Assembly (NCBI GenBank): GCA_945920215.1
Contig: CAMEJM010000012.1
Coordinates: forward strand, 1-47,500
Origin: an uncultured bacterium
GTDB lineage: Bacteria > Bacillota > Clostridia > Oscillospirales > CAG-272
Length of the DNA stretch: 47,500 nucleotides
Reading direction: 5' to 3'
How positions within the stretch are numbered: the first letter of the stretch is position 1; every line of letters starts with the position of its first letter. Of this stretch, positions 11,363 through 12,522 are shown piece by piece. The translations under genes and the position numbers were made by a program. The notes beneath the pieces were generated by a model. That model made no database searches. It saw nothing but the letters and a program-made list of their open reading frames with translations, and had not been told where the DNA came from.

Positions 11363-11447
11363 CGCCTCTCTCAAAAAACAAGCAACCACGGCGCAAGGGT
11401 GACAGCACTTGCCGTACGTTGGCAAGAGAGAATACGGCTTCCGAAAA

Positions 11448-11479
11448 CGAAACAGCCCCACACGAGGTGGGCTGTTTCG
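11448..11479. repeat. Hairpin of the outermost tRNA-tail repeat unit
   Basis: Stem CGAAACAGCCC (11448-11458) with its complement at 11469-11479. It occupies the same place relative to copy A as the tRNA-Tyr terminator hairpin does relative to copy B, but with a different stem. It may act as a terminator in either direction. The stretch 11371-11447 to its left holds a further decayed unit (AACCAC..GCGCAAGGGTG at 11384-11401). Confidence 0.65.
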
Positions 11480-11480
11480 T

Positions 11481-11610
11481 TTTGGTGAGGGAAGCTTACA
11501 TAGTGTAAATCGGGGCAATTCGCACGGATGTTGCAATGTACGAACATAAGGTATCGCCCCGAACCGTCCACCGGACGGTTCGTCCGACTCCAGCTTCCCA
11601 AAACAAAAAA
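11481..11610 (-). repeat. tRNA-tail structured repeat, copy A (tRNA-Tyr type)
   Basis: About 130 bp closely similar to copy B at 12284-12410. Read on the minus strand it starts with TTTTGGGAAGCTGGAGTCGG, an inverted copy of the tRNA-Tyr T-arm/acceptor end. It contains a 9-bp hairpin GAACCGTCC-GGT-GGACGGTTC and a TTCGTAC/GTGCGAA stem. It ends with AAGCTTCCCTCACCAAAAC, a direct copy of the tRNA-Tyr 3' end including CCA. Sequence differences between copies A and B in the hairpin are compensatory. Confidence 0.85.
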
Positions 11611-11616
11611 CCACCG

Positions 11617-11662
11617 CAAGGGAGAGGTTACGTAAGGAAGTAGCCTCTCCCTTGATTTTTTT
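11617..11662 (+). terminator. Left end hairpin of the GNAT cassette, terminator-like
   Basis: Perfect 11-bp stem CAAGGGAGAGG (11617-11627) with CCTCTCCCTTG (11644-11654), extendable to about 15 bp, inner loop with CGTAAGGAAG, then ATTTTTTTG. Confidence 0.7.
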
Positions 11663-11717
11663 GTTGAGATTCTAATATAATAAGCATAATAAACGGAATA
11701 TGTGAGGGTAGTACAAA

Positions 11718-12158
11718 ATGAAAGACCGAATTATTGACAACGAAATTAAGCTGATACCATATTACAGAAATGATGCAGCATCGTTTCCGTGGTATCAGGA
11801 TTTAGACGTTTGTAAACAGATAGACAATCGAGACGAACCATATGATTTGGAACTTTTACATAATATGTATGACTTTCTTAATACTCATGGAAATTGTTAC
11901 TATATAGAATATAAGGGCATATTAGTAGGCGATATTTCCTTGAGAGATAATGCCGAAATAGCCGTTGTTGTTTGCAAAGAATACCAAAATCAACACATCG
12001 GAAGACGGTGCGTTATGGATATGCTGAAACTGGCAAAGGAGAAAGGAATGAAAAAGGTAAAAGCCAATATTTATTCTTTTAATAAGCAGAGCCAGTCTAT
12101 GTTTCAATCTGTTGGTTTTGAGAGAACTGATGATGAATGGTACGAGTATACGCTCTGA
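11718..12158 (+). CDS. GNAT-family N-acetyltransferase
   Basis: The 146-residue protein has the GNAT fold: a central beta-strand IAVVVCKEYQNQHIGRRCVMDML carrying the acetyl-CoA loop (QNQHIGRR), then VKANIYSFNKQSQSMFQSVGFERT, the usual C-terminal helix and strand. The acceptor substrate is unknown; short GNATs like this often modify small molecules or ribosomal proteins. The gene is conspicuously AT-rich compared with genes left of 9 kb and right of 12.8 kb, which fits recent transfer. It is the only gene between two matching halves of a terminator repeat. A GAGGGTAG sequence precedes the ATG. Confidence 0.85.
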   Translation: MKDRIIDNEIKLIPYYRNDAASFPWYQDLDVCKQIDNRDEPYDLELLHNMYDFLNTHGNCYYIEYKGILVGDISLRDNAEIAVVVCKEYQNQHIGRRCVMDMLKLAKEKGMKKVKANIYSFNKQSQSMFQSVGFERTDDEWYEYTL

Positions 12159-12231
12159 TGAATTGCAGGAATACTATGATCAAATTCAGTTTATATTCCA
12201 ATGGCGCACTTATTCACCATCATCCGGAAAG

Positions 12232-12280
12232 CCACCTTGGGGCACCTTCCTTACGGAGGATGCCCCAAGGGTGGTTTTTT
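12232..12280 (+). terminator. Right end hairpin of the GNAT cassette, terminator-like
   Basis: CCTTGGGGCA (12236-12245 region) pairs with TGCCCCAAGG (12261-12270), with an outer CCAC/GTGG pairing, loop containing CTTCCTTACG, then TTTTTTT. The loop is the reverse complement of the left-end loop. Confidence 0.7.
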
Positions 12281-12283
12281 TGC

Positions 12284-12410
12284 TTTGGTGGGGGAAGCTT
12301 ACAAAGCGTAGGTCGCGGCGGTTCGCACGGAAGTTGCAGAGTACGAACACAGTTTTAGTCCCGGAACCTCCACCGGAGGTTCCGTCCGACTCCAGCTTCC
12401 CAAAACAAAA
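12284..12410 (-). repeat. tRNA-tail structured repeat, copy B (tRNA-Tyr type)
   Basis: Same unit as copy A, lying immediately 3' of the tRNA-Tyr terminator. The minus strand has the inverted tRNA end (TTTTGGGAAGCTGGAGTCGG), a hairpin GGAACCTCC-GGT-GGAGGTTCC, the TTCGTAC/GTGCGAA stem, and a direct tRNA 3' end (AAGCTTCCCCCACCAAA) identical to the last 15 bases of the gene plus CCA. Confidence 0.88.
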
Positions 12411-12437
12411 AACCACCGCAAGGGTGGTTATTTGTTT
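12411..12437. terminator. Terminator of tRNA-Tyr
   Basis: AACCACC / GGTGGTT stem (12411-12417 and 12423-12429) with a GCAAG loop; on the minus strand it is followed by TTTTTTG directly after the tRNA. Confidence 0.8.
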
Positions 12438-12522
12438 TGGTGGGGGAAGCTGGATTCGGACCAGCGAAGTCAGAGACAACAGATTTACAGTCTGCCCCCT
12501 TTGGCCACTCGGGAATTCCCCC
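12438..12522 (-). tRNA. tRNA-Tyr (anticodon GTA), CCA encoded
   Basis: A class II tRNA on the minus strand. The 7-bp acceptor pairs GGGGGAA (12516-12522) with TTCCCCC (12442-12448). The anticodon loop CTGTAAATC gives GTA; there is a long variable arm and a T-arm ending in GGTCCGAATCC, then discriminator A and CCA. Downstream lies a chain of structured repeats copying its 3' end. Confidence 0.97.

Follow-up and report, generated by a model that had tools for sequence, protein, structure and literature searches.

Repeats behind tRNA-Tyr in an uncultured clostridium resemble the tRNA-linked repeats of Escherichia coli and may be short mobile DNA at tRNA ends

Repeats copying the end of a neighboring RNA gene are a known puzzle of Escherichia coli. 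These tRNA-linked repeats (TLRs) were first described in 1978 and, as stated in passages of a 2021 paper, have no known function apart from that paper's own work on the repeats RrA/B/F (PMC8144298). The same passages report 22 TLRs at ten E. coli loci, in which 18-19 bp of the 3' end are identical to the 3' end of the upstream RNA gene, and describe RrA/B/F as lying between two terminators, transcribed by readthrough, processed and bound to Hfq and CsrA (PMC8144298). The rtT-like repeats of enterobacteria have been assigned, in a section of another paper, to the BIMEs, a DNA repeat family (PMC2965389). Here, we analyzed a stretch of 47,500 nucleotides (the window; contig CAMEJM010000012.1 of assembly GCA_945920215.1) from an uncultured bacterium of the Clostridia, in which two structured units, A and B, follow a tRNA-Tyr gene and carry copies of its 3' end. 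With a probability of about 0.58, we regard these units as a clostridial form of tRNA-linked repeats, that is, as short, non-coding and non-autonomous mobile DNA at tRNA ends. A similar layout is already known from the E. coli TLRs; the clostridial core is a different one, and in these uncultured gut bacteria it is located at many different tRNAs. A literature search by title disclosed no title on clostridial units.

The anchoring tRNA-Tyr gene (GTA; ARAGORN and Rfam RF00005, 51.2 bits) resides at positions 12438..12522 on the minus strand with its 3' end towards the units, so that "behind" the tRNA means towards lower coordinates; the features below lie on the same strand unless stated otherwise. 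A terminator-like palindrome (12402..12437, inverted repeat I5) separates the tRNA from unit B, which by alignment with unit A covers positions 12282-12401. Unit B starts with the T-arm/acceptor end of the tRNA in inverted orientation (12384..12401, inside the inverted repeat I2 of 27 nt, 85% complementary) and continues with the inner hairpin GGAACCTCC-GGT-GGAGGTTCC (12363..12383) and a middle part, called class I core below (12300..12362), which, read by eye, contains TTCG as a copy of the T-loop would. It finishes with AGCTTCCCCCACCA, which repeats the final 14 nt of the tRNA in direct orientation (12286..12299, no mismatches). Next come a palindrome at the cargo border (12228..12277, I3), an open reading frame (ORF) on the plus strand encoding a GNAT acetyltransferase of 146 aa (11718..12158; PF00583, E 7.4e-11), a palindrome at the other cargo border (11617..11654, I7) and the right half of a terminator palindrome (11600..11619), which is identical to the matching stretch before unit B. 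Unit A (11481..11599, from the alignments with unit B) is composed of the inverted end (11582-11599), the hairpin (11561-11581), the middle part and the direct tRNA-end copy (11483-11496, one mismatch), and is followed by a further terminator-like palindrome (11444..11483, I6, 15 nt, 100% complementary).

Alignments of the two units gave 74% identity over 101 nt, 86% over 74 nt and 81% over 118 of the 120 nt of unit B. The sequence GGGAAGCTGGAGTCGGAC, with which both open, is reverse-complementary to GTCCGAATCCAGCTTCCC of the tRNA except for one change, and the inner hairpin of unit A (GAACCGTCC/GGACGGTTC) differs from that of unit B by compensating pairs. The preliminary description of this locus, made from the sequence, had reported units of about 130 bp with inverted and direct copies of the tRNA end as well as compensating hairpin changes, and the alignments and arm matches bear this out. 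Its chain of units needs to be modified: A and B are real, but they are not adjacent, as the GNAT gene, which had been missed, splits them and occupies the would-be loop of a terminator palindrome. The decayed third copy mentioned there corresponds to a weak, possible inverted start at 11430..11443, recognized by eye.

The preliminary description had also missed further copies in the genome. By blastn with unit B, six copies were identified (E 9e-58 to 6e-25): two in the window, two that follow a second tRNA-Tyr gene (contig C29) as a tandem of 152 bp, and two on contig C16, near and at its end; C16 and C29 may be neighbors. Like unit B, the C29 units contain the last 14 nt of the tRNA exactly. 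We refer to the window's own units with their shorter insert as class I and to units with another core, which is common in the genus, as class II. Neither blastn with unit B nor the covariance model R2, built from five class I units, revealed a further class I copy in this genome (G000), where R2 matched ten places, four of them being the antisense strand of the same units. Since blastn with unit B against 147 genomes including G000 matched G000 only, relatives were sought through the anticodon arm of tRNA-Tyr. Outside G000, R2 yielded two weak matches, one behind tRNA-Tyr in genome G005 (E 0.0036) and one behind tRNA-Leu in G033 (E 0.0048). In G005, a class I-like unit and then a class II unit lie in one array, and G000 possesses a class II unit behind tRNA-Gln. 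We infer from layout and co-occurrence in genomes, not from homology of the core sequences, that class I is tied to class II.

The E. coli TLRs share with the clostridial units the position behind tRNA genes, the 3' end copying that of the respective tRNA, the tandem arrangement and one insert common to several tRNA types. Out of 11 regions fetched from strain K-12, four contained TLR units, behind the 11 tRNA genes argQ, argZ, argV, lysT, lysW, lysY, lysZ, lysQ, lysV, tyrT and tyrV. No unit was detected in the other seven by a 17-nt search; the rrnB repeat, an 18-nt match of which 13 nt represent the 5S end, is present and lies below the reach of this search. The tyr, lysV and lysQ units agree with the clostridial ones in repeating the T-arm 5' strand in front of the insert and, judged by eye, in having inverted T-arm or acceptor sequence ahead of it, and those of lysV and lysQ are also preceded by a terminator-like hairpin, whereas the arg and the other lys units did not show a T-arm 5' copy by the criterion used. 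The last 17 nt of the tRNA are exact in 12 displayed E. coli rows, compared to 14 nt in the window and mostly far less in class II. The 18-19 bp of 3' identity reported for TLRs contrast with 14 nt in class I, which are exact in unit B as well as on C29 and have one mismatch in unit A; in class II, 3 of 85 copies possess a complete acceptor. The location immediately behind an RNA gene, in contrast, is the same in the window. The Rfam model of RtT (RF00391) matched neither the window (gathering score) nor 14 loci (E up to 1), while K-12 as positive control gave four matches. Hence, a part of the E. coli TLR family has the clostridial layout, and the core is not common to both. The earlier remark, in which no described element family with this design was recognized, was therefore too strong a claim of novelty, as the layout of the TLRs, among them rtT behind tRNA-Tyr, is similar. 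Transcription has been reported for RrA/B/F in the passages cited (PMC8144298); the clostridial units are known from DNA alone.

The anticodon arm of tRNA-Tyr was searched in 117 genomes and matched in 93, and the DNA behind it was read in part of them. Several species of the genus harbor a structured unit directly behind the tRNA-Tyr terminator. With the covariance model R1, constructed from 12 units of 10 loci, matches were obtained in at least 57 of 69 genomes of the genus, G000 included, at up to 18 places per genome (E up to 0.001), and in at least 10 of 295 genomes sampled evenly across the order (E up to 1e-4), of which two belong to the same genus, five to other genera of the family and three to other families; both are lower bounds, as the best 46 and the best 10 candidates per genome were scored, respectively. 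A scan of the genome contigs for the core pattern, performed without selecting for tRNAs, gave at least 120 loci (80 of the 120 listed were displayed); its genomes overlap with those of the R1 genus search, so that the two sets are not independent.

Behind the tRNA, a class II unit comprises the terminator palindrome, the inverted tRNA-end copy, a hairpin, the 5' strand of the T-stem with TTCR, the core, the 3' strand of the T-stem and a variable acceptor stretch. The core of approximately 80 nt has the consensus CATACCCC..CGAAGATCG-ACAAGCTCGCTTGT-CAGGCGAAG..GGGTAT, then a hairpin TTCGCC..GGCGAA, and its loop sequences are conserved. In a strict test, the exact end of the T-stem was followed by at least three consecutive acceptor nucleotides in 20 of 85 units and by none in 46; the whole acceptor with CCA was found without mismatch in the three direct copies mentioned above. 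A class II unit is consequently a second copy of the tRNA end, usually cut short, with the core inside its T-loop. Among 149 aligned cores of the listed loci, to which the counts on cores and arms below also refer, 135 have TTCG, TCCG or TTCA followed by CAT, CAC or TAT near their start, copies at the tRNA-Ser 5' end included (three of 152 cores were left out because their start was unaligned). Rfam searches of the window and 14 loci returned tRNA, tmRNA, signal recognition particle (SRP) RNA, a glycine riboswitch and sub-threshold matches, and no match above the gathering score covers a unit. One class II unit lies behind a tmRNA gene and has arms resembling the tmRNA 3' end (L171:2597-3132). 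In G070, which belongs to another genus of the family, two units of about 161 bp with a different insert, possibly a third core class, reside behind tRNA-Tyr and finish in an exact copy of the tRNA end (L013:1558-1880). A different chain of hairpins with CATCATT/AATGATG-like or similar spacers was seen by eye directly behind the tRNA-Tyr terminator at L017, L019, L023, L027, L029, L033, L051, L053, L057, L010 and L067.

The statistics on anchoring, arms and covariation were all derived from class II cores. Of the 152 cores found by a core profile, 38 were too near to the end of their locus and were dropped. Among the 114 assessable cores, 106 face a tRNA end at a median distance of 93 nt: 88 lie behind the 3' end on the same strand (87 tRNAs and one tmRNA), the place known from TLRs, and 18 beyond the 5' end of a tRNA-Ser on the opposite strand, which is outside the TLR definition. 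For the remaining eight there is no tRNA within 600 nt, three of these having one at 742, 1732 and 2943 nt. On the far side, no tRNA was present within 300 nt of any of the 114 cores. Altogether, tRNAs of 11 amino-acid types carry class II units. The matches were thus not scattered over the genomes but located at tRNA ends and equipped with the end of that very tRNA. In 75 of 77 units, the direct arm was a closer fit to its own tRNA than to other tRNAs on average, and the total was 1431 against at most 1159 in 1000 permutations; ten of the 87 units behind a tRNA had been dropped since no ARAGORN tRNA ending in CCA or no motif was available. The inverted copies also fitted their own tRNA better on average (9.07 of 13 versus 7.41), and the tetranucleotide before the core equals positions 54-57 of the own tRNA in 73 of 78 cases. 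Beyond tRNA-Ser, the arms are the reverse complement of the tRNA 5' end, and again the core follows TTCG (16/18 displayed). As the T-arm is not involved there, this suggests that insertion follows a sequence in the DNA, TTCR close to a tRNA end, and not the structure of the tRNA.

When more copies were aligned, covariation did not disappear; in class II it was overwhelming. In the larger alignment (A4, comprising 100 of the 120 listed loci), 98.2% of 2,301 cells were paired and 18 of 20 pairs changed on both sides, amounting to 398 cells, a value reached by none of 500 shuffles, while the smaller set (A3, 72 sequences) showed 97.8% pairing and 17 of 20 pairs changed on both sides (239 cells), both alignments being fitted to the model and thus leaning towards it. 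The 16 core pairs of the larger set contained 14 G-T and 14 A-C combinations in 1,927 cells. As a control, the acceptor and T-stems of 95 distinct tRNAs from the same loci were inspected, which revealed 90 G-T and one A-C in 1,140 cells. If the core acted as an RNA, a pattern similar to that of these tRNAs should be seen. Since the core has no excess of G-T, its pairing looks like the reflection of a constraint on DNA. The lean over all pairs in A3 (46 G-T versus 7 A-C) was set aside as evidence for RNA, because 29 of the 46 fall into the T-stem, whose pairs are copies of those in the tRNA, and no such lean is seen in the core of the larger set.

There are also signs of movement. A tRNA-Gln gene with its unit is 98.8% identical over 258 aligned nt between locus L206 of G375 and L310 of G308 (L250 has the same sequence as L310), two genomes whose rpoB genes share 72% identity over 1,566 nt. 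This module begins at most one base from the start of the tRNA and stops where the direct copy, CCTAGTGCC, is complete; the promoters and the downstream DNA are different. As the tRNA body is conserved anyway, the telling part of this identity is the unit. In four related genomes the DNA between the unit behind tRNA-Cys and a common flank changes: it is missing at L182, is a remnant of about 70 nt at L103, consists of a second unit plus about 1.6 kb at L199 and of about 3.5 kb of other DNA at L236. Small ORFs with promoter-like sequences were found between units at L250/L310 and L166. Gene blocks bounded by units fit a few loci (L250/L310, L166 and the tRNA-Cys group); most units have no gene between them. 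At L102, L177 and L187, the stretch G(G/A)CATCTTTT(T/C)TGTCAACACG(C/A)CTC is common to the cargo end just before the palindrome of an orphan unit and is perhaps a second conserved border. An ORF encoding a VYVEITNVCNRSCSFCPG-like stretch, by eye similar to radical-SAM proteins, follows the tRNA or the array at L035, L039, L042 and L258, which represent several species.

Taking these data together, a unit is made up of the palindrome adjoining the tRNA, which normally is the terminator of the latter, the inverted tRNA-end copy, the hairpin and the direct copy, whose T-loop contains the structured core as an insert after TTCR. For the inverted copy, both the tRNA end itself and the direct copy are possible pairing partners, so that branched hairpins can form in a single strand of DNA. 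We propose that either this folded strand or the inverted repeats as duplex DNA most probably serve as the substrate of a recombinase or a repair process, which would place units at tRNA ends, multiply them in tandem and move them between genomes, and small genes such as the GNAT gene may accumulate between units. The split T-loop, the missing G-T excess, the copies at the tRNA-Ser 5' end and the module in two diverged genomes point to DNA mobility. Thus, the non-autonomous element inserting 3' of tRNAs, one of two possibilities raised in the preliminary description, is the best fit, if its additional occurrence beyond tRNA-Ser 5' ends is taken into account. Presumed parts of this proposal are the single strand as substrate, the enzyme, which way the copying runs, and the transfer of the class II results to class I units.

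Several observations weigh against it. The class I core was matched weakly outside G000, its covariation stems from few copies, and the alignments demonstrating class II covariation are, as noted, model-fitted. Core pairs of the smaller set A3 lean to RNA (17 G-T versus 7 A-C), so that RNA may contribute, and a terminator-like hairpin resides within 90 nt downstream of 32 of 112 last units, as against 6 of 112 control stretches. The case for movement was built on metagenome bins; misbinned contigs could mimic a transfer between G375 and G308, though two different flanks would remain. Nearest-neighbor cores were located at the same tRNA of other genomes in 16 of 44 cases (3.9 expected) and at other tRNAs of the same genome in 7 of 44 (5.1 expected), and this clustering by tRNA type across genomes more than within genomes implies long residence and rare jumps. 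Finally, the search for a partner enzyme was negative. No integron integrase (TIGR02249) exceeded the cut-off in any of 69 genomes, the Y1 transposase (PF01797) and reverse transcriptase were present in 18 and 11 of these, respectively, but gave no match in G002 and G047, which are rich in units (14 and 13 core matches), and the exact core pattern occurred in no viral contig. A role of these three enzymes as resident partner is therefore unsupported by the searches. Weaker matches to tyrosine recombinases were obtained in 62 of the 69 genomes, but likewise in all 14 controls. Seven integrase regions (L303-L309, five with tRNA-Pro) do not contain a core. At L302:3745-5530, a gene for a tyrosine-recombinase-like protein of 314 aa lies about 350 nt behind the last of two tRNA-Glu units.

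The other possibility raised at the outset, a readthrough RNA that is processed in the manner of a tRNA, is not favored by the data. In this scenario, the units would be small RNA genes transcribed through the tRNA terminator and released by the enzymes of tRNA 3' maturation, as has been proposed for E. coli RrA/B/F, whose two terminators, readthrough, processing and binding of Hfq and CsrA set a precedent (PMC8144298, passages cited above); the core would bind a protein or base-pair. Terminator-like hairpins upstream of 66 of 102 last units and the downstream ones already mentioned agree with it, as do the conserved loop sequences and the core pairs of A3. In the larger set, however, the core pairs were balanced while the tRNA stems were not, readthrough of a tRNA cannot reach the 18 units situated beyond the 5' end of an opposite-strand tRNA-Ser, and acceptor and CCA are intact in three of the 85 direct copies only. 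We consider this explanation unlikely. Still less probable is a wider interpretation in which tRNA genes would anchor an integron-like capture of genes, the unit being a folded single-strand recombination site with arms rebuilt from the host tRNA, insertion occurring at TTCG^A, cassettes of promoter plus ORF (e.g., GNAT) being gained and lost behind it, and the E. coli TLRs being relics of such a system. Arrays of integron attC sites are similar in that structured repeats lie between small ORFs, a fixed site serves as anchor and different genes stand behind the same anchor; they differ in that most clostridial units are geneless, the anchor is a tRNA gene and the integrase is missing from the 69 genomes above the cut-off. 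No attC core sites were recognized by eye, a systematic search not having been made.

More doubtful again is that the units are leftovers of phage or integrative and conjugative element integration, each event supplying a new tRNA 3' end and leaving the old one behind. In some direct copies (e.g., L125, L147) the tRNA end is indeed complete and another terminator comes after it, tyrosine recombinases are common, and the gene at L302 is recombinase-like. Attachment-site remnants, on the other hand, would not be expected to have a core that is conserved and covaries, nor an inverted copy and much the same unit size at tRNAs of 11 amino-acid types, nor do the lack of the exact core pattern in viral contigs and of the core in the seven other integrase regions fit. 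Replication errors provide the least probable explanation, a very improbable one: by folding back at the terminator palindrome, the polymerase would copy the tRNA end in inverted and direct orientation without dedicated machinery. One long palindrome is indeed formed by the tRNA end, the palindrome and the inverted copy together in several loci (e.g., L034, L123), and if the polymerase folded back once more, at the inner hairpin, the direct copy could originate; left unexplained would be why a conserved core follows TTCR and is present at many tRNAs.

Mobile DNA at tRNA ends, the reading we prefer, may also be compared with REP/BIME elements, which are short palindromic intergenic repeats without a gene of their own. 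The clostridial units are alike in this respect, and the link between rtT and BIMEs stated in the section cited above (PMC2965389) points in the same direction. They differ from REP/RAYT systems by their anchoring at tRNA ends, their tRNA-derived arms and the absence of a Y1 transposase match in G002 and G047. Compared with E. coli, only the clostridial units were seen to lie beyond a tRNA-Ser 5' end or to have genes between them, which was not observed in the K-12 regions examined. With a second, much larger TLR-like family in the Clostridia, spread over 11 amino-acid tRNA types and possessing its own conserved core, a curiosity of E. coli turns into a comparative problem. It becomes testable by which enzyme the structured core is put behind the TTCR of a copied tRNA end, and whether tRNA genes organize the turnover of small genes in this way. 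Elsewhere in the window, a large bacterial SRP RNA is encoded on the minus strand at positions 634-899 (RF01854, 171 bits).

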